The translations under genes were made by a program, and so were the position numbers. 64,000 nucleotides of DNA from NCBI RefSeq assembly GCF_016801985.1, contig NZ_JAEVLS010000002.1, positions 1,178,001-1,242,000 on the forward strand, read 5' to 3'. Under the pieces are notes generated by a model that searched no databases, was not told the origin of the DNA, and saw nothing but the letters and a program-made list of their open reading frames with translations. The stretch's first letter is position 1. Every line of letters begins with the position of its first letter. The DNA is from Steroidobacter gossypii (lineage in GTDB: Bacteria > Pseudomonadota > Gammaproteobacteria > Steroidobacterales > Steroidobacteraceae). Positions 20,096-40,500 of this stretch are shown in pieces.

Positions 20096-20728
20096 ATGGC
20101 CAAAGCAGTGGACAAGGCGTATCACACCGTACGTGAACGCATCGTGCGCGGCGTGTATCCAGCTTCCTCTCGCATCACCGAACAGGAAGTGGCAGCCGTC
20201 GCGGGGGTGAGTCGCACCCCGGTACGGGAGGCGTTGCGAAAACTCCACGCCGAAGGACTGCTGGAATTCATCCCCCACCAGGGCGCCATCGTCACCGAGT
20301 GGACGGTCGAGGATCGCGACGACGTTTATGAGTTGCGCGCCATGCTCGAGTCGTATGGAGCGGGTCGGGCGGCGCGTCGGATCACCGCGGAGGGCATCGC
20401 CGAGTTGCGGCAGCTCGCCGAGGATCAATATCACGAAACGCTGGCGAAGCCGGAGGGCTATCTCGAACGAGTCGGCGTCCTGAACAGTCAGTTTCACCGA
20501 CGCATTCACGAGTTCGCGGGCAGCCCGCGACTGGTGACGGCGCTGGCGTCGCTGATCGAGGCGCCGATGATGTTGCGAACGTTCGCGACCTATCAGGACG
20601 AGGACTTGATCCGTAGCGCGTCGCACCACCTCGAAATCGTGCGTGCGCTCGAAGCGCGCGATGGCGACTGGAGCTCCGCGCTGATGCGATCCCACATTCT
20701 CGGGGCTCGCGGCACATTGCAGATCTGA
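20096..20728 (+). CDS. GntR-family transcriptional regulator (FadR/FCD subfamily)
   Basis: This is a 210-residue DNA-binding regulator. The N-terminal winged helix (residues ~8-75) includes VRERIVRGVYPASSRITEQEVAAVAG, then the recognition helix VSRTPVREALRKL. The C-terminal all-helical FCD ligand-binding domain (~85-200) has VYELRAMLESYGAGRAARR, an NSQFHRRIHEFAGSPRL stretch with metal-binding histidine candidates, and HLEIVRALEARD near the end. FCD regulators usually sense organic acids and control neighbouring catabolic genes. Adjacent candidates are HMG-CoA lyase upstream and the peroxiredoxin downstream, but no target can be assigned. Confidence 0.9.
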   Translation: MAKAVDKAYHTVRERIVRGVYPASSRITEQEVAAVAGVSRTPVREALRKLHAEGLLEFIPHQGAIVTEWTVEDRDDVYELRAMLESYGAGRAARRITAEGIAELRQLAEDQYHETLAKPEGYLERVGVLNSQFHRRIHEFAGSPRLVTALASLIEAPMMLRTFATYQDEDLIRSASHHLEIVRALEARDGDWSSALMRSHILGARGTLQI

Positions 20729-20803
20729 CTTGAGCTGTACCGGACCGGCGCCCGCTGTCTAGAATGGCGGGCTCCAGTTCAAGTCACAAGCGAGGGGATG
20801 GTC

Positions 20804-21283
20804 ATGATCAAAGTCGGCGACAAGATGCCTGCGGGCACACTCACGCAGATCACCGCGGAAGGGCCGCAAAAGATCAGCGCCGAGGAGTTCTTCAAAGGCC
20901 GCAAGGTCGTGCTGTTCTCGGTGCCCGGCGCGTTCACTCCCACCTGCGACGCCAAACATCTGCCGGGCTTCGTGGAAAGGGCCGGAGAGATCAAAGGCAA
21001 GGGCATCGACACCATCGCCTGCATGGCGGTGAACGATGCGTTCGTCATGAAAGCCTGGGGCAAATCCCAGAACACCGATGGCAAGGTGGAGATGCTTGCC
21101 GACGGCAACGCCGAGTACACCAAGGCGCTGGGCCTCGACATGGACGCGAGCGGCTACGGCATGGGCACTCGCGGTCAGCGCTTCTCGCTGGTCGTGGACA
21201 ACGGCGTCGTCAAACAAGTGAACGTCGAACAGAAGGGCGAGTTCAAGGTGTCCAGCGCGGAGCACGTGCTGACGCAGCTGTAA
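20804..21283 (+). CDS. Prx5-type peroxiredoxin
   Basis: This 159-residue thiol peroxidase reduces H2O2 and organic hydroperoxides. The peroxidatic cysteine is about C48 in SVPGAFTPTCDAKHLPGF, the characteristic Prx5 (atypical 2-Cys) motif. A second Cys at about 73 (IDTIACMAVND) may act in resolution. GTRGQRFSLVVDNGVVK is the conserved C-terminal Arg motif. The ATG at 20804 is preferred over the one at 20798 because the GAGGGG ribosome-binding site (20792-20797) is then 6 bp away. A TAGAAT -10-like site lies at 20760. The reductant is probably glutathione/glutaredoxin or thioredoxin; none is encoded nearby. Confidence 0.9.
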   Translation: MIKVGDKMPAGTLTQITAEGPQKISAEEFFKGRKVVLFSVPGAFTPTCDAKHLPGFVERAGEIKGKGIDTIACMAVNDAFVMKAWGKSQNTDGKVEMLADGNAEYTKALGLDMDASGYGMGTRGQRFSLVVDNGVVKQVNVEQKGEFKVSSAEHVLTQL

Positions 21284-21304
21284 GACGGGCAAAATAAAGA
21301 TAAA

Positions 21305-21333
21305 GGCCGCCGCGATTCGGTATCGCGGCGGCC
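21305..21333. terminator. Strong hairpin between peroxiredoxin and the Wadjet operon
   Basis: A 12-bp perfect stem (GGCCGCCGCGAT and its complement) with a 5-nt TCGGT loop. A-rich sequence lies on the left side and there is no T tract on the right. Read on the minus strand it is a textbook intrinsic terminator (hairpin then T-rich), while for plus-strand transcription it is a stem without a U tail. It separates prx from jetA by 22-34 bp on either side. Confidence 0.6.
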
Positions 21334-21366
21334 ATCGATGCAGGCGCTGAACCTGCAGGACTGAAC

Positions 21367-22875
21367 GTGACGGCACTCACTGCAGCCGCGGCCGAACTCT
21401 TCAACCACATCACCGCCGACAAGGCGGCAATCTACCGCGCCGTGATGGACGTCTTTTCGGCGGCGAAGCGGCAGTTCCGTCTGCACCTGCGGCCCGATGA
21501 GGTGCTTGCGGAAGTCCGATGGCCTGGCGAGAGGCCGACGCTGGACGACGTGCAAGCCGTGCTTGCACAGCTGACCGCGTGGGGCAATCTGCAGGCCCAG
21601 CCCGATACGGCGCGCGTCGCCAGCATCGAAGACTTTTATCGCAAGCGCCTGCTGTACCGGATCACGGCCGGCGGGGAGGCCGTCGAGGCGAGCCTCGAAG
21701 TGTTCGCGCAAACGCTGGCTCGACGAGGGGAGTTGCAATCCGTTGCCCTCGACGATATTCACGCTCGCCTCACCTCGCTCGGGCAGCTGATGGCTGAAAC
21801 CCCGCACGACGCGGCCAAGATTCACGAGGCCCTGCGTGATCTCATGCACGTCTTCCAGGGGCTTTCGGATAACGCGCAGGCATTCATGGTCTCGCTGGCG
21901 CGCACCATCGAGCTGCAGCGGGGCGAGCCGGCGGCGGTCATGACCTTCAAGACCCGGCTGATCGACTATCTACAACGGTTCATCGGCGATCTGGTCACTC
22001 GTTCCACCCAGATCGGCTCGCGACTCGAGGAACTCGAGCCCAACGTTGAGCAACTGCTCCTGATTGCCTCCGAGCGCGAGGCGCATGACGCGGCCCCGGG
22101 GCACGAGGAGGAGATGGCGCAGGCACGAACGTTGCGACTGAGCGCCTGGCGCGAACGTTGGCGAGGTCTTCGTGAATGGTTTATTGCGAACCACGGCAAG
22201 AGCTCTCAATCGGAGCTGCTGCGGGCCAGTGCCCTTTCTGCCATCCCGCGGCTGTTGCAAGCGATCGCGACGCTCAACGAACGCCGCGCTGGACGCAGCG
22301 ATCGCGCGGCGGATTTCCGGAGGCTAGCGTTGTGGTTCACTGAATGCGGGACGGACCGCGATGCACATCGCCTCTGGCGAGCGGCGTTCGGCTTGTCGCC
22401 GGCGAGGCACCTGGCGCTCGTGCCGCCGGAGGCTGAAGCGAGTAGTGGCGCATCGTGGATGGTGGCCCCCGCCGTCGGCGTCATGCCGCTCTTGCGCGAG
22501 CGCGGCCAGCTGCCCACGCGGGGCGCCGCGCCCCGAATCAAAGATCGGTCGAAGGAGCGTGAATGGCTCGCGTCCCAAATCGCACACGAGGCCGCGCAGA
22601 CGGACGCTGCCCGTCAACGCCTGGCGACCGGCCGGGAAATGCGACTCTCCGATTTGGGAACATTGGACGCACCGTCATTCAAGCTGTTCCTGGCACTGCT
22701 CGGCGACGCGCTTGCCGCTCAACATCATCCCGATCAAGCCGTGGAGCGATTCACCGCGGATGGCTCCCTGCAGATTCGGCTCGAGCCGCTGGAGCCCACG
22801 AGCCAAGCTCATATTCAGACGCCTTCAGGTATGTTTTCCGGGCGCGACCATCGCCTGTTGATCCGACGGGTTTAG
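21367..22875 (+). CDS. jetA: Wadjet defence protein JetA, DUF2397 type (TIGR02677-like)
   Basis: This 502-residue protein is first in a four-gene operon. It reads as the DUF2397/TIGR02677 family, the JetA of type II Wadjet: FNHITADKAAIYRAVMDVFSAAKR and FRLHLRPDEVLAEV at the N-terminus, then EDFYRKRLLYRITAGGEAVE (winged-helix/kleisin-like). Wadjet is a condensin-like SMC complex that recognises and cleaves closed-circular plasmids. JetA is the kleisin-like subunit bridging the SMC heads. The start is GTG at 21367, just after AGGACTG; the next in-frame ATG (21444) would cut conserved residues. JetB follows 3 bp after the stop. Confidence 0.85.
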   Translation: MTALTAAAAELFNHITADKAAIYRAVMDVFSAAKRQFRLHLRPDEVLAEVRWPGERPTLDDVQAVLAQLTAWGNLQAQPDTARVASIEDFYRKRLLYRITAGGEAVEASLEVFAQTLARRGELQSVALDDIHARLTSLGQLMAETPHDAAKIHEALRDLMHVFQGLSDNAQAFMVSLARTIELQRGEPAAVMTFKTRLIDYLQRFIGDLVTRSTQIGSRLEELEPNVEQLLLIASEREAHDAAPGHEEEMAQARTLRLSAWRERWRGLREWFIANHGKSSQSELLRASALSAIPRLLQAIATLNERRAGRSDRAADFRRLALWFTECGTDRDAHRLWRAAFGLSPARHLALVPPEAEASSGASWMVAPAVGVMPLLRERGQLPTRGAAPRIKDRSKEREWLASQIAHEAAQTDAARQRLATGREMRLSDLGTLDAPSFKLFLALLGDALAAQHHPDQAVERFTADGSLQIRLEPLEPTSQAHIQTPSGMFSGRDHRLLIRRV

Positions 22876-22878
22876 TCG

Positions 22879-24099
22879 ATGAGCCATGCCGACCGCCGAC
22901 TCGCCGATGTCCTGGCGCACCAGATCGAGGAAGAGCGCGAACAAGCCATCCGCGCGCTGCTGATGCGGCCGTTGCTGACCGAAGGCAACCCCGAAATGCC
23001 GCTGGTTCGCCGGCACGGCGAATATTTACGGGAGTGGTTCCAGCGTGAGACCGGCTGGGTACTCCACGTGGAGCGCGAATGCGCGCGACTCTACAAGCGA
23101 CCGGCATCGCATGAGGATGCAACCCGAGGTTTACGGAAGTTCGACCGTGAGCACTACGTCCTGCTGTGTCTGACGTGCGCGGTGCTCGAGCGCGCCGACA
23201 CGCAAATCACGTTGAGAGCGTTAGGGGAGCGGTTGTTGGAGGCCGTCCTCGACACGGAGCTTGCAGCGCGAAACTTCAGTTTCACATTGGAGACGACGCG
23301 GGAGCGACGGGTGTTGGTCAATGTGTGCCGATTCTTGCTCGAGTTCGGCGTCATCACGCGCGTGGCCGGAGATGAAGAGGGTTACGTCACGCAAGCAGGT
23401 GACGCGCTGTACGACATCCATCGCCGCGTTCTTGCGTCGCTGCCTGCGAGCACGCGCGGTGCGAGCTTGATCGCCGCAGGTGAGAACGCTCCTGGCACGC
23501 TGGAGGAGCGCATCCGTGCGCTCACCGAAGAGTTCGTTGCGGACAGTCCAGAGGCGCGTCGCACGGCCGCGAGGCACCGGATTGCGCGTCGGTTGTTGGA
23601 TGATCCGGTGACTTACTACGATGAGCTGGTCGAGGAAGAACGGGCCTATCTGGCCACTCAGCGTGGACCCATGTCGGCGCGTCTGGCGCAGGGCGCTGGC
23701 CTGACGCCGGAGTTGCGCGCCGAAGGTCTCGCTCTGATCGACCCCGAAGGCGAGCTGTCGGACGAGCGCATGCCCGCCGTCGGGACCGAAGCTCACATCA
23801 CATTGATCATCGCCGAGCGTCTGGCGGCAGCTGCGCGCATCGATGCAGAGCGCATTCATTCGATGCACGAGCTCGAGACATTCCTGCGCGAGGCAGTGGA
23901 CCAATATGGCAAGTACTGGCGCAAGGACGCGCGTGAACACGGCGCGGTGCGCGGCCTCGTGGAGCAGGCGATCGACCGGCTCGAAGCGTTGAAACTCGTG
24001 TGGCGCGTATCCGGCGAGGGCGTGAAGGTTCGTGCTGCTTTGTTGCGCTTCGCGGTGGGTCCGCCTGAGGTGCGAGTAGCGCCGGAGGTGGCGCGGTGA
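22879..24099 (+). CDS. jetB: Wadjet defence protein JetB, DUF2398 type (TIGR02678-like)
   Basis: This 406-residue protein is the second Wadjet component, the KITE-like winged-helix subunit that binds the JetA kleisin. Family features of DUF2398/TIGR02678 visible here are EYLREWFQRETGWVLHVERE and ARLYKRP. The segments HYVLLCLTCAVLERADTQIT and LVNVCRFLLEFGVITRVAGD are also present, and MPAVGTEAHITLI lies in the C-terminal half. The start ATG is 3 bp after jetA. The stop overlaps the GTG start of jetC in a GTGA, so translation is probably coupled through the operon. No signal peptide or membrane segment is present. Confidence 0.85.
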   Translation: MSHADRRLADVLAHQIEEEREQAIRALLMRPLLTEGNPEMPLVRRHGEYLREWFQRETGWVLHVERECARLYKRPASHEDATRGLRKFDREHYVLLCLTCAVLERADTQITLRALGERLLEAVLDTELAARNFSFTLETTRERRVLVNVCRFLLEFGVITRVAGDEEGYVTQAGDALYDIHRRVLASLPASTRGASLIAAGENAPGTLEERIRALTEEFVADSPEARRTAARHRIARRLLDDPVTYYDELVEEERAYLATQRGPMSARLAQGAGLTPELRAEGLALIDPEGELSDERMPAVGTEAHITLIIAERLAAAARIDAERIHSMHELETFLREAVDQYGKYWRKDAREHGAVRGLVEQAIDRLEALKLVWRVSGEGVKVRAALLRFAVGPPEVRVAPEVAR

Positions 24100-27000
24100 A
24101 GGATACGCCCTCGAAGATTCCGTTGCCGGAGCCCACGCGCGAGCGTTGGCAACCACTTCGCCTCGGCTTGGTGGAGATGTACCACTACGATGTCGAAGAG
24201 TTCTGGTTTCGCGACGGACATCTGCTGCTACGCGGCAACAACGGCACTGGCAAATCCAAGGTGCTGTCGCTCACGCTGCCATTTCTGCTCGATGCGAATC
24301 TGAGCTCTTCGCGCGTCGAGCCGGATGGCGACCGCACCAAGCGGATGGACTGGAATCTGCTGATGAACGGCCGGCATCAGCGTCGCATCGGTTACACGTG
24401 GCTCGAGTTCGGGCGCAAGACGTCCCATGACGAGACGCAGATACTGACGCTCGGCTGCGGCATGAAGGCGATTGCCGGCCGATCGACGGTCGACACATGG
24501 TTCTTCATCACTCAGCAGCGCATAGGCATGGACCTGTGGCTGACCACGCATGAACGCATGGCGCTGTCGCGTGAGCGGCTGGAGGAAGCGCTCGGCTCAC
24601 ACGGCCAGATCTTTCCCACCGCATCCGCCTACCGTAGAGCCGTGGATGAACGGTTGTTCCGCATGGGCCAGCAGCGCTATGGCGCGCTGGTGGACACATT
24701 GATCCAACTGCGACAGCCGCAGCTTTCCAAACAACCGGACGAACGGCGTTTGTCGGAAGCGTTGACCGAGGCACTGCCGCCCCTCGACCGCGCGGCGTTG
24801 GAAGATGTCGCGGAGGCGATGAGTCAGCTCGAAGACATGCGTCGTGAGCTGCAGGAGCTCGAGGCAATGCGGGCAGCGATCGCCTCGTTCACCGGGCGTT
24901 ATCGCCGCTATGCGCAGATCGCCACACGTCGGCGGGCGCGGCTCGTCCGGCAGTCTCAGACCGAGTTCGATCAAACCAGCCGCGAGCTGAACGATGCCAA
25001 AGCGGCGCTGGAGCGAGCGCGTGAGCTGGTGTCGAGGTCACAGGAGCGGCAACGCGAATCGGAGGATCTGGTCGCGATGGCCACGGCGCGCCTGGCGGCG
25101 CTGAACCAGGATCCATTGATGCGAGATGCATTCCGCATCGAGGAGGCGAGACGCGATGCTGATCGCTGTCGTCGCAGCGTCGCCGACGCCGACCAGCGAG
25201 CTCACGGCGCGCGTGCTCGCGCCGATCGGGAATCACGGCTGGCCGCCGAGCGGCGATCGGTCTGCGAAACGACTCGCGAGAAGCTGGTCCGCACCTTTCG
25301 CAGTGTGACGGAGCTTGCAACGACCAGCGGTGTGGTCACGGCAATGGACCGCGTACTCGAACCCGCTCTGCTGCCCGATGGCCTCCAGCACGCGCCCAAC
25401 GACCTCGCCGACAAAGTGCTTCAAGTCAGTCGGGATGCCGAGAGGCGGCGTCGGGAGCAAATCGCCATTGTTCGCAGACGCAGGGTGGAGCTGGAAGAAG
25501 CACGGCAGTTGCTGGTCCGGGCCAAGGATTCGCGCGCCGTGCATGCAGAGGCTTTCGATCGCGCCGAGCAGGCATTGCAGTCATCGATTGCGGAGTTGCG
25601 TGCCGCCTCGGCGGAGTTGTTGCAGCAGTGGCGCGATCATTGCGCGAGGCTGCACGAGTTGGATCTCGCCGGCAGCGACGAATTGCTGGGTGAGTTGGAA
25701 ACATGGGTCGAGAACCAGGCAGGACCCAATCCGCTACGCGTCGCCCTGGAGCGCGCGTGGGAGAGTCAGCAAACACAGTTCGCCGCGCGCGAGGCCGAAC
25801 TCGGCGAACAGCGCAAGAAGCTTCAGGCTGAGCAGTCGTCTTTGAAGGATGAGCAGAGTCTGTTACTGCGCGGTGAGGATAAGACGCCGCCGGCGCCTTA
25901 CACTCGTGCCGTGGACGTGCGAATGCAAAAGTCCGGTGCGCCGCTATGGCAGGTCGTGGATTTCGCCGATCACGTTGCCTCAGAGCAGCGTGCGGTGCTC
26001 GAGGCTGCGCTCGAAGCCTCGGGGTTGCTCGATGCATGGGTGTCGTCCGAAGGAGTTCTGACGAATCGCCGCACGCAGGATGTGATGCTCACACCGCGGC
26101 GCGCGTGCGTTGGGCCATCGTTGCGCGAGTGGTTGAAGCCGACGATTCCACAGTCCGGCCCAGGAGCTTCGCTGAGCGAGGCGATGCTGTTGAAGATCAT
26201 GGATGCCATTGCATGCTCTGATGACGAACCCATCGAAGCGGAAGCTTGGATCTCGCCAGCAGGCGAGTTTCGTGTGGGCGCGCTGCGTGGCTTCTGGGAA
26301 AAACCGAGCGCGGAGTACATCGGACACGCGGCGCGTGAGGCGGCAAGACAGGCGCGGCTTGCGGCAATCAAGCAACAGTTGGCGCAGTTGGACCTGGCGT
26401 TCGCAGACATCGCCGCTGCACTCGACGAACTTTCTGAAAGGCGGCGCTTCGCTCGCGGAGAAGTCGACGAAGCGCCTTCCGACGATCGTCTGCTGCGAGC
26501 TCACTCGCATCGCATAACAGCGGAAGAACAGCGACGAGGAGCGCAAGCACGCCTTGGCCATGCGGACGCTCGTGTGTTGCAGGTCGAAGAAAACATGTCG
26601 CTAGCCAACAGCAGACTTGAAGCCGACGCGCGCGACTTGTCGCTTCCCGTCGTGGAAGATCAGATCCTATCGGTAGAGCTTGCGCTCTCCGATTTTCGAG
26701 CGGGAGCCACGGAGCTGAGCGGCGCGATCCAAGCGCATCGTAACTCGCTGCGGGAATGGAATGCGCAACAAGAGCGCGAGCAGACGGCGCTGGCCGATGT
26801 TGAGGCGGCCGTTCTGGAGGAGGCGGAAAATCGGCGCGCTCAGCGAGTGGCGGATGAATTGCTTGCAACGCTCGAGGCAACCGTCGGCAAGCAGGTGAGC
26901 GAGCTTCTGCAGGAGATCCGCGCGACCGAGACGTCCAAGCGTGAGCACGAGACATCGCTGCAGCGGGCACGTGCCGAATTGATCGTGGCCAGCAGCAACC

Positions 27001-28232
27001 GAGGTACCGCCGAGGCAAAGTGCAGCGCTCTCACCGAGCGCTTGACCGAGAGAGTCGAGCATCGCCGTCGTGCCATCGATGAGTTGCAGACTTTCGCAGC
27101 ACGCACCGGGCTGCTCGAAGTCGCCGTACCGGGCGTGCAGTTGCCGAGCGCTGATGCGGAGTGGGGCATCGAAGCGGCGCTGATTGTCGCCAGGCGCGCG
27201 GAACAGATATTGGTCGAGGTGGCTGCGGAGGATGCGGATTGGAGCCGTATTCAAGCTACGATCAGTCGGGATCTCACTGAATTGCAATCGGCCATGTCCG
27301 CGCAGGCGCACGCGGTTGAAGCCGAGCTCAGCGACTTCGGTCTGATTGTGCGCATCACCTATCAACAGCAATTGCAGCGCCCCGATACTCTCGAGCTGCG
27401 CATCGATGCCGATCTGCAGGAGCGGCGCATGCTGCTGTCCGCACAAGAGCGAGCGGTTCTGGAGCAGCACCTGGAGAAGGAGATCGCCGCGAACCTGCAG
27501 CGCATGATTCAAGATACAGAGCAACGCGTCGCGGCCATCAACGCGGAGCTCTACCGGCGGCCCACTTCGACGGGCGTGCGATACAAGCTCGACTGGCAGG
27601 TGGTTCCGGATGAAGACCCCAATGCCGTCGCTGGGCTTGCCGAAGCTCGCAAGCGGCTCTTGCGCACTCGCGCGGACGCTTGGTCGGCCGAAGATCGCCA
27701 GCAGGTGGGCGAATTCCTGCGCGCAAGAATTGATGCCGAGCGTTTGCGTGACGAACAAGCCTCGCTTTCGGACAACCTGGCGCGAGCACTCGATTACCGA
27801 CGTTGGCACCGGTTCCGCGTGCAGCGTTTGCAGGACGGTGCATGGAAGCCGCTCTCCGGTCCGGCCTCGAGCGGTGAGCGAGCGCTCGGGCTCACAGTGC
27901 CCTTGTTCGCGGCGGCGAGCAGCCATTACGAAAGCGCGCATGCGCACGCTCCGCGGCTGGTCTTGATGGACGAAGCGTTCGCTGGCATCGACGATGAAGC
28001 CCGAGCGAATTGCATGGCGCTGATCCGCGAGTTCGACCTCGATTTCGTCATGACCAGCGAACGTGAATGGGGCTGCTATCCTGCGCTGCCTGGCCTATCG
28101 ATCTGTCAGCTGATTCGTCGCGAGGGAATGGATGCCGTCTATGTCACGCGATGGGCGTGGGATGGACGCGAGCGGCGCGAGCAGCCTGATCCAGAGCGGC
28201 GTTTTCCGGAAGCCCTCAGCAGTGAGGGATGA
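24096..28232 (+). CDS. jetC: Wadjet SMC-like ATPase JetC (TIGR02680-like)
   Basis: This is the 1,378-residue SMC-family motor of the Wadjet complex. The N-terminal ATPase half has the family opening RWQPLRLGLVEMYHYD and a Walker A GNNGTGKS at residues ~47-54. Two long charged coiled-coil stretches (about 230-520 and 750-1100) flank a hinge-like region near 560-720. The C-terminal half carries the ABC signature-like SGERALGL (~1258) and Walker B LVLMDEAFAGIDDE (~1288). ATP-driven loop extrusion positions circular DNA for cleavage by JetD. The start is GTG, with GGAGG 7 bp upstream and a 4-bp overlap with jetB. The ATPase motifs are intact, so the protein should be functional. Confidence 0.9.
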   Translation: MKDTPSKIPLPEPTRERWQPLRLGLVEMYHYDVEEFWFRDGHLLLRGNNGTGKSKVLSLTLPFLLDANLSSSRVEPDGDRTKRMDWNLLMNGRHQRRIGYTWLEFGRKTSHDETQILTLGCGMKAIAGRSTVDTWFFITQQRIGMDLWLTTHERMALSRERLEEALGSHGQIFPTASAYRRAVDERLFRMGQQRYGALVDTLIQLRQPQLSKQPDERRLSEALTEALPPLDRAALEDVAEAMSQLEDMRRELQELEAMRAAIASFTGRYRRYAQIATRRRARLVRQSQTEFDQTSRELNDAKAALERARELVSRSQERQRESEDLVAMATARLAALNQDPLMRDAFRIEEARRDADRCRRSVADADQRAHGARARADRESRLAAERRSVCETTREKLVRTFRSVTELATTSGVVTAMDRVLEPALLPDGLQHAPNDLADKVLQVSRDAERRRREQIAIVRRRRVELEEARQLLVRAKDSRAVHAEAFDRAEQALQSSIAELRAASAELLQQWRDHCARLHELDLAGSDELLGELETWVENQAGPNPLRVALERAWESQQTQFAAREAELGEQRKKLQAEQSSLKDEQSLLLRGEDKTPPAPYTRAVDVRMQKSGAPLWQVVDFADHVASEQRAVLEAALEASGLLDAWVSSEGVLTNRRTQDVMLTPRRACVGPSLREWLKPTIPQSGPGASLSEAMLLKIMDAIACSDDEPIEAEAWISPAGEFRVGALRGFWEKPSAEYIGHAAREAARQARLAAIKQQLAQLDLAFADIAAALDELSERRRFARGEVDEAPSDDRLLRAHSHRITAEEQRRGAQARLGHADARVLQVEENMSLANSRLEADARDLSLPVVEDQILSVELALSDFRAGATELSGAIQAHRNSLREWNAQQEREQTALADVEAAVLEEAENRRAQRVADELLATLEATVGKQVSELLQEIRATETSKREHETSLQRARAELIVASSNRGTAEAKCSALTERLTERVEHRRRAIDELQTFAARTGLLEVAVPGVQLPSADAEWGIEAALIVARRAEQILVEVAAEDADWSRIQATISRDLTELQSAMSAQAHAVEAELSDFGLIVRITYQQQLQRPDTLELRIDADLQERRMLLSAQERAVLEQHLEKEIAANLQRMIQDTEQRVAAINAELYRRPTSTGVRYKLDWQVVPDEDPNAVAGLAEARKRLLRTRADAWSAEDRQQVGEFLRARIDAERLRDEQASLSDNLARALDYRRWHRFRVQRLQDGAWKPLSGPASSGERALGLTVPLFAAASSHYESAHAHAPRLVLMDEAFAGIDDEARANCMALIREFDLDFVMTSEREWGCYPALPGLSICQLIRREGMDAVYVTRWAWDGRERREQPDPERRFPEALSSEG

Positions 28233-29508
28233 GCGTCTGCTTCGTTTACTCGGAGGGCCGGACCTTGCGGCCCTTCGCGGGCGACTGCGCGCTCGCTTCG
28301 AGCGCAGTGAGCTTCGCGATGAGTTCACACTGCACGACGTGTCTCCAGCAGAGCGTCAGGCGCTCGAGGGTTTGCTGGGACGCCCACCGAAGCTGGCCAG
28401 GTCGATTCAGCTCAGCCATACCGAATTGGATCGCGCCGTTGCACGCGCAGGTCTTGCGACGGATCTGCGTTCGGCATTGGAAACTCTCGACGGACCGATT
28501 GTCGACCGTCGCAGCGAGCAGATCCGCATGCAGGAGGCGTGGCGAGCGGTGCTCGCCAACGTAAACGACCAAAGGTTGATCGCGTCATTTTCGGACAGTG
28601 CGGGTGTCGCGTTGCTGAAGCGATGTGCTGGCGGCGATCCAGCCCATGCGGTGAGCTTGATTGTCCAGGCGGAGCGGGTTCTCGCATTGCTGCCGGCATC
28701 TGGAACTTCGCGCGCTCAGCTCGCCGCTCACGCTCTTGGCGATTCGCATGCTCTTGATGTCGGGCAGCCTGTTGCATCGCTGGTGTTGCGAGCGTGCCGA
28801 GTCAGCAAACATCCGCTGCGGATCGGAACTGAGGATGCGGAAGCCGATGACATTGCAGAGGGCAGCGCAGCCCGCGGTGATTCTTCAGCCGAAGCGCGCG
28901 GATTGTCGGTTCGCGATCAGTGGGCGCGCGTGGGCGTCGTTGTCAGTGAGCTCGCAGCACCCGCCCTATGCCTGAATCTTTCAGCGCTGGGCGCTTCTGC
29001 TGGCGCACAGTTGGTGCGCGCGGCTAAAGAGACGGCCGAACCCTTCCATTTGAGCTTACGAGCCCTGCTGCGCGACCCGCCTATATGGGATGTCGCCGGC
29101 GTCGTTGTTTCTATTTGCGAGAACGCGTCCATCGTTGCGGCCGCCGCAGACCGGTTGCAACACCGCTGTGCGCCGCTGGTCTGCACTGACGGAATGCCGG
29201 GCGCCGCCCAGCAGGTTTTGCTACAGCAGCTCGCGGCAGCCGGCGCGCGGCTGCTTTATCACGGCGATTTCGATTGGCCAGGAATTCGCATCGGCAACTT
29301 CGTGATGCGTGAATTCTCTGCGCAGCCCTGGCGATTTGGCGTCACTGACTACCTCGCGGCCGCGGCCAGCGGACTTCCCCTGCCAGCCGAGGGGCAGGTC
29401 CTCGCCGACTGGGACGCGCAACTTGCTCCGACCATGACGTCGCGGGGCTTTGTCCTGCACGAGGAGCGAGTGATCGAGCTGCTGTTGGGTGATCTGAAAT
29501 GTAGCTAA
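28222..29508 (+). CDS. jetD: Wadjet nuclease subunit JetD, DUF2399 type (TIGR02679-like, Toprim)
   Basis: This ~428-residue protein is the DNA-cleaving subunit. The C-terminal DUF2399/Toprim-like region carries the acidic residues expected for metal-dependent cleavage: a Glu in VVSICENASIV, and the D-x-D-like pair in YHGDFDWPGIRIGN. The N-terminal part starts RLLRLLGGPDLAALRGRL and includes LEGLLGRPPKLARSIQLSH, typical of the family. The frame is open upstream to an ATG at 28132, which would overlap jetC by 101 bp. The GTG at 28222 (11-bp overlap) is chosen because the family homology begins there. The catalytic residues are present, so the system looks complete. Confidence 0.83.
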   Translation: MRDERLLRLLGGPDLAALRGRLRARFERSELRDEFTLHDVSPAERQALEGLLGRPPKLARSIQLSHTELDRAVARAGLATDLRSALETLDGPIVDRRSEQIRMQEAWRAVLANVNDQRLIASFSDSAGVALLKRCAGGDPAHAVSLIVQAERVLALLPASGTSRAQLAAHALGDSHALDVGQPVASLVLRACRVSKHPLRIGTEDAEADDIAEGSAARGDSSAEARGLSVRDQWARVGVVVSELAAPALCLNLSALGASAGAQLVRAAKETAEPFHLSLRALLRDPPIWDVAGVVVSICENASIVAAAADRLQHRCAPLVCTDGMPGAAQQVLLQQLAAAGARLLYHGDFDWPGIRIGNFVMREFSAQPWRFGVTDYLAAAASGLPLPAEGQVLADWDAQLAPTMTSRGFVLHEERVIELLLGDLKCS

Positions 29509-29523
29509 AATCAATGTCTTATA

Positions 29524-29565
29524 TCATCGGGGACATCTAAAAGATAGATATACTATACTTTTGGA
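29524..29565 (+). promoter_or_regulatory. AT-rich promoter region of the HTH/toxin pair
   Basis: A markedly AT-rich 40-bp stretch between jetD and the HTH gene. It holds two overlapping TATACT hexamers (29549-29554 and 29554-29559), 6-11 bp before the start codon. The mRNA would be leaderless or nearly so. This fits an autoregulated antitoxin promoter; no clean operator symmetry was identified. Confidence 0.45.
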
Positions 29566-30069
29566 ATGATGCGAATCGCTGCGTTCGGCCAAATGATCCG
29601 TCAGGCGCGCCGGGCCCGCCGGCTGACTCAACGCGAGTTGGCGCTGCGAACCGGCTTGTCCCGGCTGACACTCAATCAGCTCGAAAATGGCGTCATCCCG
29701 GATTTGGGCGTTCGCAAGGTCGGCGCCGTGCTGGATGCGTTGGGGCTGGAGTTGCAAGTGCAGCCGGCCGAACCTCGCGCAGGAACGAAGGATTTCCTGA
29801 GCATGGCGGCCAGCTCCGCCAGCGTCAGCTTGAAAGAGCCGCTGCATCCCGATGAGCTCGAGTACGCGCTGCTTTCGGGAAAGATCCCCGCGAATAGACG
29901 CGCGCACTTGATCACGCTGTTGGAAGAAGCACCCGGCTGGTTGTTGGAAGGATTGGTGAGGCAGATCGGCTCCTTGAGCAAGGCGGGCAGGGTGCAAAGA
30001 AACATTCGCAAGCTGGCCGAGCAACTGGGCGTCAGCCCCGAGGTGGGTCAGTGGCAGCGCTTCGTCTAG
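29566..30069 (+). CDS. XRE-type helix-turn-helix protein, likely antitoxin of the AbiEii-like toxin
   Basis: This is a 167-residue protein. The N-terminal XRE/Cro HTH (residues ~8-60) reads FGQMIRQARRARRLTQRELALRTGLSRL with LNQLENG closing the fold. The C-terminal ~100 residues are helical, ending SPEVGQWQRF, and are not a domain I recognise. HTH proteins of this layout commonly precede a nucleotidyltransferase toxin of the AbiEii/AbiGii kind, which is exactly the next gene. The stop at 30069 overlaps the candidate GTG (30051) of that toxin. It probably represses its own AT-rich promoter. The start is ATG 29566 or 29569. Confidence 0.75.
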   Translation: MMRIAAFGQMIRQARRARRLTQRELALRTGLSRLTLNQLENGVIPDLGVRKVGAVLDALGLELQVQPAEPRAGTKDFLSMAASSASVSLKEPLHPDELEYALLSGKIPANRRAHLITLLEEAPGWLLEGLVRQIGSLSKAGRVQRNIRKLAEQLGVSPEVGQWQRFV

Positions 30070-30104
30070 ATCTCTGGGAAGCGCTATTTCGCAAGGCGCG
30101 CTGA
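30051..30104 (+). pseudogene. Out-of-frame 5' piece of the nucleotidyltransferase toxin gene
   Basis: A GTG at 30051, inside the end of the HTH gene, opens a short frame reading VAALRLDLWEALFRKAR and then TGA. Its amphipathic LDLWEALFRKA segment would join smoothly to LTIIDSAGES in the next frame if two bases were removed from the GCGCGC run at 30096-30101. This looks like the true N-terminus of the toxin, separated by a 2-bp insertion (or a sequencing error). Confidence 0.5.
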
Positions 30105-30133
30105 CGATCATCGACTCAGCGGGCGAGTCGGCA

Positions 30134-30700
30134 TTGCCACCGGACCGATGGACGTTTGGCGGCGGTACGGTGCTGATGCGACGTTATCGTCATCGCTTCA
30201 GCAAAGACATCGACATCTTCGTACCGGATCCTCAGTACCTGGGGCATCTCAGTCCGCGGCTGAATGACATCGCCGACGGTCTGACGATGCATTTCAACGA
30301 GCAGGCGAATTTTCTCAAGCTGTACCTGCCCGAAGGGGAGATCGACTTCGTCGTGGCCAGTCCGCTGACGCAACCTGCTGCGCGCATGGAACACATATTG
30401 GGTCGGCAGGTGCAGGTCGAGACTTCCGTGGAGATCATCGCCAAGAAGATCTATCACCGCGGGAAGGATTTCACCGCACGCGACATACTGGATTTAGCGT
30501 TGCTGATTGAAAAGCTGCCTGAAGCCTTGGTCGGCATTCGCACAATTCTGCGCGAACGGCGTGAGGCGATGCTCGCGCGAATCGACGCCGACCACGCGCG
30601 TCTGCGAGCGGTATTCTCGCAGCTGGCGATCCTTGAGTATCGGCGAAGTTACGATGAGTGCGTTGACATCGTCCGGACGGCCTTGATCAACGCAGGGTGA
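30134..30700 (+). CDS. AbiEii/AbiGii-type nucleotidyltransferase toxin (5' end probably frameshifted)
   Basis: A 188-residue open frame from a TTG. The conserved nucleotidyltransferase motif is [20 protein letters not shown]: the glycine-rich GG turn, and the D-I-D metal-binding pair at about residues 25-27. EIDFVVA supplies a third acidic position, and the helical [22 protein letters not shown] motif is typical of AbiEii/MenT-like proteins. Such toxins transfer nucleotides to tRNA or other targets and are neutralised by the adjacent HTH protein. The frame is open upstream to about 30041, but the likely natural start (30051) is in another frame, separated by a GC-repeat change. The gene may be inactive or use an internal start. 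Confidence 0.72.
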
Positions 30701-30714
30701 CTGTCTCGAATGTC

Positions 30715-30750
30715 GGCGAGCGCTGCAAAGCTTGCAGCGCTCGCCTTTCT
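30715..30750. terminator. Strong intrinsic terminator between the toxin and etfA
   Basis: A 14-bp perfect stem (GGCGAGCGCTGCAA with its complement) and a 3-nt AGC loop, followed by TTTCT. It sits in the 71-bp gap between two convergent genes. It can end the plus-strand Wadjet/toxin transcript, and the stem can also act on the minus-strand etf transcript. Confidence 0.8.
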
Positions 30751-30771
30751 CGATGTGGTTGGAAGGGGCGC

Positions 30772-31713
30772 TCAGCCGAGCGCTTTTTCCAGTTCCGGCA
30801 GGATGGTGAACAGATCGCCCACCAGGCCGATGTCGGCGACCTCGAAGATCGGCGCTTCGGCGTCCTTGTTGATCGCCACGATGGTGCGCGCGTCCTTGAT
30901 GCCGGTCAGGTGCTGGATGGCGCCTGAGATGCCGACCGCGACGTACAGTTCCGGTGCGATGATCTTGCCGGTCTGGCCGACCTGCAGGTCGTTCGCGGCG
31001 TAGCCTGCGTCCACCGCGGCGCGCGATGCGCCCACGGCGGCGCCGAGCTTGTCGGCGAGGCTGAAGATGATTTTGAAGTTGTCGGCGCTGCCGAGCGCAC
31101 GGCCGCCAGAGACGACGCGAGGCGCGGTCTGCAGATCCGGACGGCCGGTTGCAGCAGCGGAGCGTTCGACGAAGCGAGTGTGAGAGGGCAGTGAAGCAGA
31201 AACATTCGCCGCTTCCACACCGGCGTTGCCGCCTTCAGGCGCAGCCTGGAACGAAGCGGTGCGCACGGTCGCGACCAGCTTCTTATCCTGCGGCGCTTCG
31301 ACGGTGATGATCGCGTTGCCCGCGTACACGGGGCGCCGGAACTTATAAGCGCCTTCGGCCGCCATGATGTCGCTCAACTGACCGACGCCGAGCAGCGCAG
31401 CGACTCGCGGCATCAAGTCCTTCCCGAAGGTCGTGGAAGGACCAAACACGTGCGTGTAGTTGGCGGCGACCGCGGCAACCTGCGGAGCGAGCACGGCCGC
31501 GATCGGCTCGGCGTTGGCGGCGTTGTCGACCTTCAGCACGGTTTTCACGCCCTGGATCTTCGCAGCTTCGGCGGCGACGGCAGCGCCGTCGGTCGCAAAC
31601 ACGGCGATGTCGATTTCAGCGCCTTCGATGGTCCTGGCGCAGGCCACGCACTTGGCAGTGGACGGATTGAGCTTGCCGCCAGAGTGTTCGGCAACGATAA
31701 GAATCTTGGCCAT
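30772..31713 (-). CDS. etfA: Electron transfer flavoprotein alpha subunit
   Basis: This 313-residue subunit binds FAD and passes electrons from acyl-CoA dehydrogenases to ETF-ubiquinone oxidoreductase. The N-terminal domain begins [13 protein letters not shown]. The C-terminal FAD domain has [46 protein letters not shown] and [21 protein letters not shown], the standard ETF-alpha signature. Length matches the family. The ATG overlaps the etfB stop by one base, so the two subunits are translated together. The window also encodes a FadJ-type protein at ~58-60 kb that would feed the same pathway. Confidence 0.96.
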
Positions 31714-34870: not shown

Positions 34871-37537
34871 TTGCGGCTCCATTCCCTTTTAGACCAGGGC
34901 GTCACAGTGCTCACCGCGAGCCGCAGGCTCGCGCATGCGCTGCGGCTGGGCTATGCCCAGCATGCGCAGAGCCGGGGACAAACCGTCTGGCGCACACCAC
35001 GCATCCTGCCCTGGTCGACCTGGCTCGCCCAGCAATGGCTGGAAGCGCGCGCCATCGGCGCTCATTCGCATCACGCTCGTTTGCTGACCAACGCGCAGGC
35101 GAGAGTTCTCTGGGACGCTCTGGTGAACGACAGCGAGTGGGGCGAGCACTTGCTGAATCCCTCCAACGCCGCGCGTCTGGCCGCTCGCAGTTGGCGAAGG
35201 ATGCAGGAATATCTGATTCCGCTCCCGGCCCTGCAAAATAGCGACAGCAGCGAGGGCCATGCGCTGCATGCCTGGTGCAGTGACTTCCTCAAACGCTGCG
35301 AGAAACTGCAGGCGATCGACGAGACACGGTTGCCGCACTGGGCGCATGACGCGAACTTCGTTCCTGAGGATACATTGGCCCTCGCGGGCTTCGACACGAT
35401 CCCGCCGTCGATCGCTCGCTTGATCGAGCGCTGGCGCGCGCTGGGCAAAGTCGTTGACATCGAGGCCGAGGAACGAACATCGCGCTCCGTGGTAGTCGTC
35501 ACTGCGCGCGACGCCGATGATGAGCTGGAGCTGGCCGCTCGGTGGGCAAGAGCGCAGATCGCGACCGGCAAGAGCACGGTCGGCGTCGTGGTCGCCGCGC
35601 TGCAGACGCGCCGTGCCGAAGTGCAGCGCGTGTTCGAAGACGTGTTCGCGCCAGGCCAGAGAAACATTCATGCCGAAGCGACCCGGATCCCTGTGGTGAT
35701 CGCGGCGCCATCTCCATTGGCGTCCTATCCCATCGTCGATGCGGCGTTGCTGGTGCTGCAGTTCGCCTTGCATGATCGTCCGGCAACGCATGCGGGCCGT
35801 TTGTTACGCACGCCATTCATCGCCGGTGGCGAGTCGGAAAAGGATCGCCGCGCCATGGCGGATTTCCGTTTGCGTGAGGAGCAGCGCGATCGTTGGGATT
35901 GGTTCGAGCTTGAGCGCTGGGCGAGCGCGACGGGTTGCGATCAACTGGCGCTTGCAGCCCGACGCATCAGCGAACAGCTTCGCGGTCAGACGAGCGCCAC
36001 TGGCGCCAGCGTCTGGGCCGAACGCTTTCATGCCTGGCTGCGCGCGATCGGCTGGCCGGGCGAGCGTTCGCTGAGCAGCGTCGAACATCAGACCGTGCTC
36101 AAGTTCCACGCCGCGCTCTCGGAGTTCGGCACGCTCGATGCGGTGACGCCGCCGCTGTCTGCGTCCGCTGCTTTGTCACGATTGCAGGAACTGCTTCGAG
36201 AGACGCCGTTCGAGCCCGAGACGCAGGCGACATCAATCACCGTCATCGATCCGGCCACCGTCGCCGGAATGACATTCGATGCGACGTGGGTGACCGGTCT
36301 GGATGCCGCGCGCTTGCCCGAGCCGGTGAATCCCGATCCTTTGTTGCCCGTCGCCTTGCAACGTGCCGCGAAGATTCCGGAAGCGACGGCGGAAGGCGTG
36401 ATGCAATTGTCGCGTGCGAGGCTCGCGCGCTGGACCAGCAGCGCACCTGAAGTCGTGCTGAGCTGGCCGCGCCAGGAAGGCGAGGCGGAGTTGCAGCCCA
36501 GCCCCATGCTGGCGACGTGGCCGACGATCAAAGGCAGTGACATTGCCATGGCGGCCGTGCGGCCGTTACGGCGAACGCTGTTCGAGCACCGTCCGCTGCT
36601 CGAGCAGATGAGAGATGAGCTCGCGCCTCGACTGAAGGTGCGAAGCGCACGCGGTGGCGCGATGACACTGGAGTTGCAATCGCGATGTCCATTCCGCGCT
36701 CAAGCGCAGATCCGCCTGGGAGCGGAGGACTTGCCCACGGTGAGTCTGGGCGTCGAGCCCATCGATCGCGGCATCATCCTGCATCGGGTGCTCGAAGAAA
36801 TCTGGGGCGGTTTGCGCACGCATGCCGCGCTGGTCGCGCTTGATGAGCAAACATTGGCCCAGCGCGTCCGCGATAGCGCTGAGCGTCACACGCTGCAGGC
36901 GTTGCAGCCGACCGTTCGATATCGCGAGCGACTCGCGGCGCTCGAAGCAAGCAATATCGCGAAGCTGGTCTTGCTACTGCTCGCGGTGGAGAAGCAGCGG
37001 CCGCCATTCTCGCTGCGTTTCACCGAAACTTCCGAGCCGTACGCAATCGGTGGACTGTCGATCACGTTGCAGCCGGATCGCATCGACGCGCTGAGCAACG
37101 GCGGGCACCTGTTGATCGATTACAAGCTCGGCGACTCACATACGCCGAGGCAATGGCTCGACACTCTGCCGGGACGGCCGCGCCGTCCACAGCTTCCGTT
37201 GTATGGACTCGCGCACGCAGAAACGCTGCGCGGCCTGGCCTACGTCGTGTTGGCAGCCGGCACGGTGGAATATCGCGGCTGGACCGATGGAACATTCGTG
37301 GGGGAGGGTGTGCTGCAATATCCGGCAGGCGTGCGTCTGAGAGTGGACCATCCCGCCGATTGGCCGTCGCTCGTCGAACATTGGCGCAAGACGCTGACGA
37401 ATCTCGCAGAGAGTTTCGTGACAGGTCAGGCCATGGTGGATCCATTGCCGGGTGAATGCGCGAACTGTCACCTGAGCGCGTTCTGCCGGATCAGGGAGCA
37501 GACCCAGGAAGAAGAGCTGGAGCATCACGATGAGTGA
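34871..37537 (+). CDS. AddB/RexB-like PD-(D/E)XK nuclease subunit (TIGR03623-like DNA repair protein)
   Basis: This 888-residue protein pairs with the UvrD-type helicase that overlaps it by 8 bp. The N-terminal part (RLAHALRLGYAQ, PRILPWSTWLAQQW) is a degenerate helicase-like region. The C-terminal nuclease has the catalytic core LLIDYKLGD (about D750-K752). An AddB-style [4Fe-4S] cluster is suggested by one Cys before the nuclease (LQSRCPFRAQA, ~606) and three at the end (GECANCHLSAFC, ~863-873). The two subunits should process double-strand breaks for recombination. The start is TTG with AAGGGG 5 bp upstream; a stop three codons above it excludes any longer form. Confidence 0.83.
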   Translation: MRLHSLLDQGVTVLTASRRLAHALRLGYAQHAQSRGQTVWRTPRILPWSTWLAQQWLEARAIGAHSHHARLLTNAQARVLWDALVNDSEWGEHLLNPSNAARLAARSWRRMQEYLIPLPALQNSDSSEGHALHAWCSDFLKRCEKLQAIDETRLPHWAHDANFVPEDTLALAGFDTIPPSIARLIERWRALGKVVDIEAEERTSRSVVVVTARDADDELELAARWARAQIATGKSTVGVVVAALQTRRAEVQRVFEDVFAPGQRNIHAEATRIPVVIAAPSPLASYPIVDAALLVLQFALHDRPATHAGRLLRTPFIAGGESEKDRRAMADFRLREEQRDRWDWFELERWASATGCDQLALAARRISEQLRGQTSATGASVWAERFHAWLRAIGWPGERSLSSVEHQTVLKFHAALSEFGTLDAVTPPLSASAALSRLQELLRETPFEPETQATSITVIDPATVAGMTFDATWVTGLDAARLPEPVNPDPLLPVALQRAAKIPEATAEGVMQLSRARLARWTSSAPEVVLSWPRQEGEAELQPSPMLATWPTIKGSDIAMAAVRPLRRTLFEHRPLLEQMRDELAPRLKVRSARGGAMTLELQSRCPFRAQAQIRLGAEDLPTVSLGVEPIDRGIILHRVLEEIWGGLRTHAALVALDEQTLAQRVRDSAERHTLQALQPTVRYRERLAALEASNIAKLVLLLLAVEKQRPPFSLRFTETSEPYAIGGLSITLQPDRIDALSNGGHLLIDYKLGDSHTPRQWLDTLPGRPRRPQLPLYGLAHAETLRGLAYVVLAAGTVEYRGWTDGTFVGEGVLQYPAGVRLRVDHPADWPSLVEHWRKTLTNLAESFVTGQAMVDPLPGECANCHLSAFCRIREQTQEEELEHHDE

Positions 37538-40500
37538 CGCGGCAGCCCGCAAACGCGCGCTCGACCCCACGCGCTCGTTCATCGTTCAGGCGCCGGCCGG
37601 CTCGGGCAAGACCGAGCTGCTCACGCAGCGCTATCTGCGATTGCTGGCGACGGTGGAGCATCCGGAACAGATCCTGGCGATCACGTTCACCCGCAAGGCC
37701 GCGGCCGAAATGCGCAATCGCATCCTGCTCTCGATCGAGGCCGCGGCGGCGCCACCGCCGGATTCGCCGCATAAGCTCACCACGTGGGAGCTTGCTCGCG
37801 CCGTCAGAGCGGCCGACGTCGAGCGCAACTGGAGACTCTCCGAGCATCCATCGCGTCTTCGCATCCAGACCATCGATGCGCTCAATTCGACGTTGGCGCG
37901 TCGTCTGCCGATTCTCGCCGGCACGGGTTCTGCCCTGGAGCCGTCTGAAGACCCATGGCCTTTGTATGGAACGGCGGTGCGCCGTCTGATCGAGCGGCTC
38001 GGCGAAGGCTCGAAGGTCGCGCAACAGTTGGAATCCTTGATCGTCCATCTGGGCAATCGCACCGACATGCTGGCGGAGTTGATCTGCGAGTTGCTCGCCA
38101 AGCGCGATCAGTGGCTGCATCAGATCGTCAGTGCGGGCGCGCACCAGAATCTGCGAGCCGTGCTCGAACAAACATTGCAGGGCGTGATCAAGCGTCATCT
38201 CGAAACACTGTGCGGGCTGCTCGACCACGTGCGCCGGCGTGACCTTTGGGAGCTCACGGTGTTCGCGGCATCGAATCTGCGCGAGGCGGGCGGGCTCAAC
38301 GAGGAGCGGCGCCTGCTGCTCGATGCCTGCACCGACGCCGCGGCTGTGCCTGGCCCGGACAGCGGCAGCCTGGACGCATGGCTCGCGCTCGCCAGCGTGT
38401 TCCTGAAGAAGGATGGATCGCCGTATCAGACCGTCACCAAGAAGAGCGGCTTTCCCACCACGCATCCTGAACAGAAACAGCAAATGCTGGCGGTGCTGGC
38501 CGATCTGGCGCAGCAGACCGATCTGATCGCGCAGCTCGGGGCGCTTCGCACATTGCCGCGCGCCGCGTACTCGCAGGAACAATGGGCGATTCTGGATGCG
38601 CTGCTGGGTGTGCTGCCCGTCGCGGTGGCCGAATTGCAACTGGTGTTCCAGGCGCAAGGGCAGGCTGACTACATCGAGGCGGCGTTGCGCGCGCTGCAGG
38701 CGTTGGGCACGAGTGAAGAGCCCACCGATCTGGCGTTGGCTTTTGACTATCGCCTGCAGCATCTGCTGGTGGATGAGTTCCAGGACACCTCTTTCGGACA
38801 GCTCGATCTGCTGGAGCGTCTGACGGCCGGCTGGACCGAAGGCGACGGACGCACGTTGTTCTGCGTGGGCGATCCCATGCAGTCGATCTATCGATTCCGT
38901 CAGGCCGAGGTCGGATTGTTCCTGCAACTGCAGCGGCAGGGGCTGCGCAACGTGCGGCTCGAACCGTTGCAGCTCACCAGCAACTTCCGTTCGACGCGAC
39001 CCATCATCGAATGGGTCAACCGTGTGTTTCCCAACGTGCTGTCACCCACCGACAACGCCGAGCACGGCGCGGTTCGTTACAGCCCGAGCGTCGCCGCGCT
39101 GCCAAGCACTCGAGGCGGAGTGAAGGTGCATGCGTCCTTCGACAACGACGAGATGGCGGAGGCGCGCCAGGTCGTGAAATTGGTGCGCAAGAGTCTCGCC
39201 GAAGATCCACAGGCGACGGTCGCGGTGCTCGTGACGGCCCGTTCGCATGTCGGTTTGATTGCGACCGAGTTGCATGCGGCCTCCATCGATTTCCAGGCGA
39301 TCGAGATCGAGGCGCTGTTGGATCGACCGGTCGTGCAGGATCTCACTGCGTTGACGCGCGCACTGGTGCATCTGGCGGATCGCACGGCGTGGCTCGCCGT
39401 ATTGCGCGCCCCCTGGTGTGGTCTGACGCTGAACGATCTGCATGCGATCGTAGATAACAATCGCGCCTCGACCATCAACGAACTGCTGACCAAGGCATTG
39501 GAGTCGGGTGAGAACTTGAGCCCCGAGGGGCGCGAGCGAGTGGGGCGCGTGCGCTCGATCCTGCAGGCAGCCTTGGCGCAACGAGGGCGATTGTCACTGC
39601 GCGATTGGGTGGAGCGCACTTGGAATGCGTTGGGCGGCCCGGCCACGCTGCACAGACCGCAGGATCTGGACGATGCCGACGCTTACTTGCGCCGGCTGGA
39701 TCAGATCGAAAGCGCCGGCGATCTCGAGGATGTGGCGCGCCTGGAGGAGCAACTCGATCGGTTGTTTGCTCGCCCGCGGCCGGAGAATCGGGCGCGCGTG
39801 GAAGTGATGACCATTCACAAGGCCAAGGGCCTGGAGTTCGATGTCGTCATCCTGCCCGCCTTGAATCGGTGGATCCGTGGCGAAGGTCGCGAGCTGATGC
39901 GCTGGACGCGTATTCCCGGCGATGACGGCGGCATCGTATTTGCGCCCATCAAAGCCGAAGGCGCCGATCCCGATCCGATGTATCGATGGATCGAGTTGCT
40001 GGAGCGTGAGCGCAGCGCTCGCGAGCGCGGCCGGTTGTTGTATGTGGCTGCCACGCGAGCCAAGCGCGTCCTGCACCTGCTCGGCACGGTGCGAGTCAAG
40101 GAAACGGACGCAGGCACGGTGGTGCAGGAGCCACGCCACGGTTCGATGCTGCGTCTGTTGTGGCCCGAAGTGAAGACGCATTTCGAGTCCGTCGTGCAGT
40201 CGAAGCCACAGCAGGATTTGTTTGCAGCCGCGCCGGCGCCTCATTTGCGCGTGCGTCGATTGCCGCTGCAATGGCAGCCGCCGGCGGCGGACGTAGCCGT
40301 GACGGCCAAGGCGGTCAACGTCAGCGATCTGGAAGCGAAGCTCGAATTCGACTGGGCGTCGCAGACGGCTCGTCACATCGGTACCCTGGTGCATCGCGAG
40401 CTCGATCGCCTGGTTCGAGCAGGTCGTGCGCAGGTATCGACCGATCGCGCGCGCCTGTGCACCGAGCTGGCCGAGTTGGGCGTGCCGCCGGATCGATGTG

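Follow-up and report, generated by a model that had tools for sequence, protein, structure and literature searches.

A complete type II Wadjet operon in Steroidobacter gossypii

A 64,000-nt stretch of the Steroidobacter gossypii genome (hereafter the window, in whose coordinates all positions are given) carries a complete and apparently functional type II Wadjet (JetABCD) operon that appears to have been acquired horizontally, a reading to which we assign a probability of roughly 0.93. It belongs to a known kind of system: the operon is ordinary and complete, and the history of its acquisition is clean. The first-pass annotation of this DNA had recognized four gene families (DUF2397, DUF2398, an SMC-like ATPase and a DUF2399/Toprim nuclease) in the type II order A-B-C-D. 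Open reading frame (ORF) calls and profile searches bore out both the families and the order, placing four co-directional genes on the plus strand between positions 21367 and 29508:

21367..22875, plus strand: jetA, 502 aa, DUF2397, TIGR02677 (PADLOC, Pfam and NCBIfam)
22879..24099, plus strand: jetB, 406 aa, DUF2398, TIGR02678, with an MksE-like C-terminal part
24096..28232, plus strand: jetC, 1378 aa, SMC-like ATPase, TIGR02680, Pfam SbcC_Walker_B
28222..29508, plus strand: jetD, 428 aa, Toprim nuclease, DUF3323 and DUF2399 (Pfam), TIGR02679, start placed at GTG 28222

JetA and JetB are described as kleisin-type and KITE-type subunits, respectively (PMC10586767). All four window proteins exceeded the curated NCBIfam cut-offs, by about 1.8- to 3.2-fold: JetA scored 528.4 bits against TIGR02677 (cut-off 165.85), JetB 351.8 against TIGR02678 (124.65), JetC 1275.5 against TIGR02680 (462.85) and JetD 359.5 against TIGR02679 (196). 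The top PADLOC models were likewise those of type II, namely JetA2 (611.8 bits), JetB2 (429.8), JetC2 (1389) and JetD2 (406). The layout of kleisin, KITE, SMC and Toprim nuclease is shared with type I Wadjet, or MksBEFG (PMC10586767), but the sequence match to that type is weak, the JetC1 profile scoring at most 32 bits on the window JetC as against 1389 for JetC2. A non-Wadjet SMC operon of the MukBEF or MksBEF kind was excluded by the four TIGR families, which include that of JetD. The window JetC is the one TIGR02680 match in the host genome, and Rfam and tRNA scans gave no matches.

The genes had also been described as overlapping, which holds for jetB and jetC (4 nt) but not for jetA and jetB, which are separated by 3 nt. 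With jetD starting at GTG 28222, jetC and jetD overlap by 11 nt. The longest jetD ORF begins at 28132; because the JetD2 profile match begins only at residue 32, beside the in-frame GTG at 28222, this GTG is most likely the true start. No internal stop was found in any of the four genes, so that 8.1 kb of frames are open end to end, and jetC and jetD are free of the frameshift that would have told against the assignment.

By analogy with characterised relatives, the JetABC SMC complex would load onto DNA and extrude loops at the expense of ATP. On a small closed circle, extrusion would go to completion, whereupon the JetD Toprim nuclease would be activated and cut the DNA; this would eliminate small plasmids but spare the chromosome and very large replicons. 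Loop extrusion on closed circles and JetD activation at the end of extrusion have been described for such relatives (PMC10586767, PMC12647877), and the type II complex of Neobacillus vireti is reported to cleave naked circular DNA (PMC12647877). Plasmid cleavage, which the first-pass annotation stated for Wadjet in general, is inferred for the window operon from these systems. JetC matches at E ≤ 1e-20 occur in 18 plasmid records, none of them shorter than 149 kb, which is what targeting of small circles would predict; just two of these records cover 80% of the query, and the set does not separate linear from circular plasmids.

Catalytic residues, predicted JetD fold and evidence bearing on activity

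Each subunit was aligned across the type II loci numbered below L200 together with the window (44, 46, 46 and 51 sequences for JetA, JetB, JetC and JetD, respectively). In JetC, residues G47, N49, G52, K53, S54, S1258, G1260, D1292 and E1293 fall in invariant columns and are all present in the window protein; we take G47 to S54 to belong to Walker A, S1258 and G1260 to the signature motif, and D1292 and E1293 to Walker B. In JetD, the C-E-N motif containing E300 and the D349-x-D351 motif are invariant and present, both among the 51 sequences and in a 38-sequence alignment. The motifs of JetC and the acidic residues of JetD are therefore intact, as had been proposed.

An AlphaFold2 model of JetD built from 25 sequences had a mean predicted local distance difference test score of 88.9 and a predicted template modelling score of 0.55, with residues 198-226 poorly predicted. 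When the model was searched against the PDB with Foldseek, the top match was topoisomerase VI-A (1d3y; E 1.1e-3, probability 1.00), and JetD of Pseudomonas aeruginosa (7til) was matched at E 1.2e-3 with a probability of 0.99. More topoisomerase VI chains and Spo11 followed, and the others among the best 50 of 252 matches had E-values of at least 0.5. The model thus resembles topoisomerase VI-A and the type I JetD, at marginal E-values of about 1e-3, and retains the active-site residues E300, D349 and D351, in agreement with the topoisomerase VI-A likeness of JetD that has been described (PMC10586767). At the sequence level, the window JetD gave no convincing match among PDB chains, and the window JetC matched one solved chain sequence, 9qe0, which is named JetC (E 4.7e-76, in three stretches). 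From PMC12647877 and its reference list, we infer that 9qe0 is the protein of N. vireti LMG 21834, whose type II Wadjet is of the same kind as that of the window. The two differ in that the window operon adjoins a helix-turn-helix (HTH)/AbiEii-like gene pair.

Several observations weigh against a functional operon. The window JetD differs from its relatives at three near-invariant positions (L73V, G272A and P302A), the last of which is near the catalytic E300, and the window JetB also differs at three. These counts are the highest after those of the divergent or partial loci L036, L035 and L037. Such departures could mean weakened function, although the position of the window sequences on a lone branch could also account for them. 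No Foldseek match of the JetD model in the PDB reached E 0.001, and a scan of positions 20700-21500 for sigma-70-like sites gave no promoter-like match before jetA. Moreover, in Cupriavidus necator a predicted type III Wadjet is reported to have been deleted without any change in transformation or plasmid stability (PMC12645576), and the presence of the genes therefore does not prove activity. Together with the adjoining AbiEii-like gene, which looks frameshifted, the JetB and JetD departures and the lack of a promoter-like match before jetA would fit a degenerating or inactive relic, whose jet genes remain open although they have started to drift, as the toxin-like gene beside them has. We regard this as very improbable: the four genes are stop-free over 8.1 kb, JetA departs at none of 60 and JetC at only two of 99 near-invariant columns, and every catalytic residue is intact.

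Insertion between the peroxiredoxin and etfA genes

We compared the 14 available genomes of the genus, that is, the host and 13 others. Ten of the 13 have the peroxiredoxin gene and etfA on a single contig, separated by about 90-210 bp, as compared with 9.5 kb in the window. The two genes are equally close in G006, but with a run of N and etfA only partly matched, and the search found no peroxiredoxin match in G005 or G010. Homology with L044 and L045 on the left covers the peroxiredoxin gene and its terminator hairpin and stops at 21333, and homology with L042-L045 on the right restarts at 30767-30774. Because homology is interrupted in this manner, jetABCD, the HTH gene and the AbiEii-like gene together form a single insert of about 9.4 kb, or several made in succession at the same site, relative to these 10 genomes:

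20798..21283, plus strand: peroxiredoxin gene, left flank, outside the insert (Pfam Redoxin, 1.6e-35)
21334..30769, strand not applicable: insert, about 9.4 kb, approximate ends from flank homology to L042-L045

The neighbourhood is thus as the first-pass annotation had it, with a redoxin-family gene upstream and the HTH and AbiEii-like genes downstream. It had also noted that no integrase was visible, and none of the six genes that fill the insert encodes an integrase or transposase. A repeat search listed no direct repeat bracketing the insert ends. Compositional evidence of transfer was also sought and rejected, the GC content of the insert being like that of its surroundings.

JetC was matched in three of the 60 relatives' genomes searched, namely the host itself and two others of the same genus, G003 and G010, at 46 and 48% identity. 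In a JetC tree of 46 rows, built by a quick method and containing one very long branch (L036), the window fell into a six-row clade with L002, L016, L017, L022 and L028 (support 100), whereas the G003 and G010 copies grouped elsewhere, with Pseudomonas libanensis. The five clade members, which are gammaproteobacterial and unplaced metagenome-assembled genomes, hold the nearest JetC relatives (56-58% identical, 58% being the closest found), and the HTH/AbiEii-like pair of the window was not found in their available flanks, which for L028 extend 747 nt past jetD. G003 carries its own Wadjet elsewhere in the genome, and its peroxiredoxin-etfA site is empty. Since the window JetC and the same-genus copies fall in separate parts of the tree, the genus probably acquired type II Wadjet more than once. 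Being well delimited and having empty sites in close relatives, this acquired type II Wadjet is useful for studying the movement of such operons without a visible integrase.

Transcription signals around the operon

The insert starts directly after the hairpin of the peroxiredoxin terminator, and the following signals were recorded at its edges and after jetD:

21305..21333, plus strand: ancestral peroxiredoxin terminator hairpin, 12-bp stem, T-run on this strand lost; the last shared bases
29530..29559, plus strand: sigma-70-like promoter match in the 57-nt gap between jetD and the HTH gene (9 of 12 matches, with a chance expectation of 0.4 in 1.6 kb)
30715..30745, plus strand: 14-bp perfect hairpin (inverted repeat I13) followed by TTTCTC, fold -28.9 kcal/mol; possible terminator of the insert's transcript

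In L042, L044 and L045 the first hairpin is followed by a T-run; the window keeps the hairpin (region 21297-21345 folds at -27.5 kcal/mol), with the T-run replaced at the insert junction. The terminator scan called 21305..21333 terminator-like on the minus strand and did not call the hairpin at 30715..30745. Because the insert has replaced the T-run, read-through from the peroxiredoxin promoter into jetA is possible, and jetABCD might be turned on in this way. The start of jetA only 34 nt past the hairpin, as well as the lack of a promoter-like match in 20700-21500, is in line with this idea. We nevertheless hold it as tentative and rather doubtful, given that the scan covered sigma-70-like sites only and that a strong GC hairpin may still pause or end transcription.

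The downstream HTH/AbiEii-like gene pair

Two further genes lie between jetD and the right end of the insert:

29566..30069, plus strand: XRE-type HTH protein, probable antitoxin or regulator (HTH_3, 3.5e-12), 57 nt after jetD
30134..30700, plus strand: AbiEii-like nucleotidyltransferase, toxin-like (PF08843, 1.6e-15), 188-aa open frame from TTG 30134

The first-pass annotation had called them a toxin-antitoxin pair. Family membership was upheld, the AbiEii-like protein scoring 58.2 bits against PF08843 (cut-off 22.5), yet the 5' end of the toxin-like frame seems to be damaged, and the two may not form a working pair. No standard start precedes TTG 30134. A homologous pair with an open-frame toxin was found in G003 (L074); the alignment program aligned the window toxin only from residue 30 of the L074 open frame onward, and the N-terminal stretch of the L074 toxin appears in another frame in the window when three frames are compared by eye. 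The AbiEii-like gene is thus probably frameshifted near its 5' end, or was mis-sequenced there. The likeness to AbiE and type IV toxin-antitoxin systems lies in the PF08843 (AbiEii) match; PADLOC AbiEii models were matched weakly (best 19.6 bits). The window differs from those systems in its XRE-type partner, which matched HTH_3 and other HTH models only and does not qualify as AbiEi-type, and in a 188-aa open frame whose 5' end looks disturbed.

The pair arrived either with jetABCD in one insert or independently at this site, and it is probably a decaying toxin-antitoxin module. It might instead be a functional partner of Wadjet, guarding the operon from loss or serving as a fallback when Wadjet is overcome. 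The pair is on the same strand, 57 nt downstream of jetD, both it and jetABCD are missing at the empty sites, and type II Wadjet operons at other loci repeatedly contain toxin-antitoxin genes, in eight of nine junction inserts (see below). We consider such a partnership decidedly unlikely, because a search of 51 other Wadjet loci with this pair gave no match in their available flanks, a result that also rejects it as a conserved extra Wadjet component. In addition, the homologous pair of G003 sits apart from the Wadjet of that genome, the window pair has its own promoter-like match, and its toxin-like frame appears damaged.

Toxin-antitoxin genes inside type II Wadjet operons of relatives

Our survey took in 75 loci, each matching type II JetC (a first set of 38, then 13 further distinct loci, 20 actinobacterial and three plasmid loci, and the window), after dropping 12 additional fetched stretches as repeats of surveyed loci. 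All four genes are present in 69 of the 75; many of the loci come from metagenome-assembled genomes, and some contigs end in or near the operon. An insert was counted where a junction gap exceeded 400 nt and contained an ORF, as called by simple rules. Three gaps of 124-139 nt (L143, L210 and L030) were excluded, and a 472-nt gap between jetC and jetD of L034 was rejected as an artefact of JetC frame tracking. Among 216 junctions (71 A-B, 72 B-C and 73 C-D, including the window's three, which carry none), nine, in eight loci, carry extra genes, and eight of these nine inserts contain toxin-antitoxin genes:

L003, B-C junction: NTase_sub_bind and Polbeta/NTP_transf_2 (HepT-MntA-like)
L007 and L014, A-B junction: BrnT and CopG_antitoxin, both below Pfam cut-offs
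L012, A-B junction: MazE and PIN
L140, B-C junction: Phd and PIN
L140, C-D junction: HTH_3 and HipA (HipBA-like)
L141, B-C junction: ParE and an RHH match (weak, below the Pfam cut-off), plus a Phd and PIN pair like that of L140
L206, B-C junction: VapB and PIN
L147, A-B junction, 5679-6008: 109-aa ORF with hydrophobic stretches, no Pfam match

The junction that holds the 109-aa ORF in L147 is occupied by BrnTA or MazE/PIN in L007, L014 and L012, which are Salinisphaera loci. When shared inserts were collapsed, about seven toxin-antitoxin insertions and one other remained. The first 38 loci, in which the pattern was noticed, gave toxin-antitoxin genes in four of four inserts, and the next 36 loci in four of five; all nine pairs are co-directional with the operon. 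As a rough yardstick, at least one toxin-antitoxin-family match, to AbiEii, was found among 56 ORFs located 3-3.9 kb outside the operons, where 25 of 54 families of the larger ORFs were listed and the 28 smallest ORFs gave no toxin-antitoxin family. Comparison of 7/8 inserts with 1/56 far ORFs yields p ~1e-7, a value to be read with the differing units, the non-independence of the ORFs and the incompleteness of the far list in mind.

Over the operon, L140 and L141 share 89-96% identity in pieces, yet each has a pair that the other lacks, HipBA-like in L140 and ParE in L141, so that toxin-antitoxin turnover there looks recent. In L140, the probable start of jetD falls within the end of the HipA gene. 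Toxin or toxin-antitoxin genes also adjoin the operon from outside, for example in L142, L004, L146, L147, L201, L216 and L223 (some partners named by eye); in L142, a Phd and PIN pair ends about 8 nt before the estimated jetA start.

Two extensions of the pattern did not hold. Among 22 type I-like loci, judged from ORF layout only, none had a toxin-antitoxin pair between jet genes, although several lack a JetD-size ORF after jetC and the upstream part of L233 is not resolvable; the difference between 7/75 and 0/22 is not significant (p 0.34), and insertion is not claimed to be special to type II. Nor do we claim enrichment in the flanks, where toxin-antitoxin genes were tallied within 0.9 kb on at least 7 of 71 sides, the tally for 3-3.9 kb being at least 1 of 71 (p 0.06). 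The near-flank tally consists of the window, L012 (by eye), L036, L142, L146, L147 and L223 (record annotation), or 6/71 without the window, which prompted the question; the near set holds one further, untraced AbiEii match.

One explanation is that protein toxin-antitoxin modules from many unrelated families (BrnTA, VapBC-like, Phd-PIN, ParE-RHH, HipBA and HepT-MntA) settle preferentially in type II Wadjet operons, entering the junctions co-directionally and tying cell survival to keeping of the operon, with the HTH/AbiEii-like pair of the window as a decaying example. We consider this general explanation unlikely as it stands. The pattern may reflect guarding, or mere tolerance of small self-promoted pairs between co-transcribed genes. 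If it does reflect selection, this would suggest that an anti-plasmid system can be kept in genomes by the plasmids' own addiction logic. Toxin-antitoxin pairs are described as often co-localising with immune systems (PMC8649781), and toxin-antitoxin genes as lying between plasmid backbone genes (PMC12375680). Precedents for a toxin module tied to a defence operon are the CreTA modules that guard CRISPR-Cas (PMC9458426) and BREX loci with auxiliary effectors (PMC12839542). These are RNA-regulated or belong to other systems, whereas the Wadjet relatives hold ordinary protein toxin-antitoxin pairs of several families between jet genes. The presence of such genes inside the Wadjet operons of relatives may be new: among the papers listed by full-text literature searches for Wadjet and toxin-antitoxin, no title or abstract opening dealt with such modules inside Wadjet operons, which is weak evidence, as subscription papers and preprints are outside their coverage.

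Other observations

In L204 and L214, JetA, JetB and JetC are present and no JetD was found downstream by tblastn; L204 has a PIN-like gene on the opposite strand after jetC. In the type I-like operon of L233, jetD is interrupted by two ORFs that resemble a transposase pair (IS3-like by eye). On a 149-kb circular plasmid of Alicyclobacillus dauci (L223), three features lie side by side: a type II Wadjet, a toxin annotated as PemK/MazF that has a small neighbour, and a pair of adjacent Cas12b-annotated frames. Elsewhere in the window, positions 34871-40883 encode two proteins that look like AddB and AddA, respectively: an 888-aa PDDEXK protein and a UvrD-type helicase of 1117 aa that also has a PDDEXK domain (Pfam).

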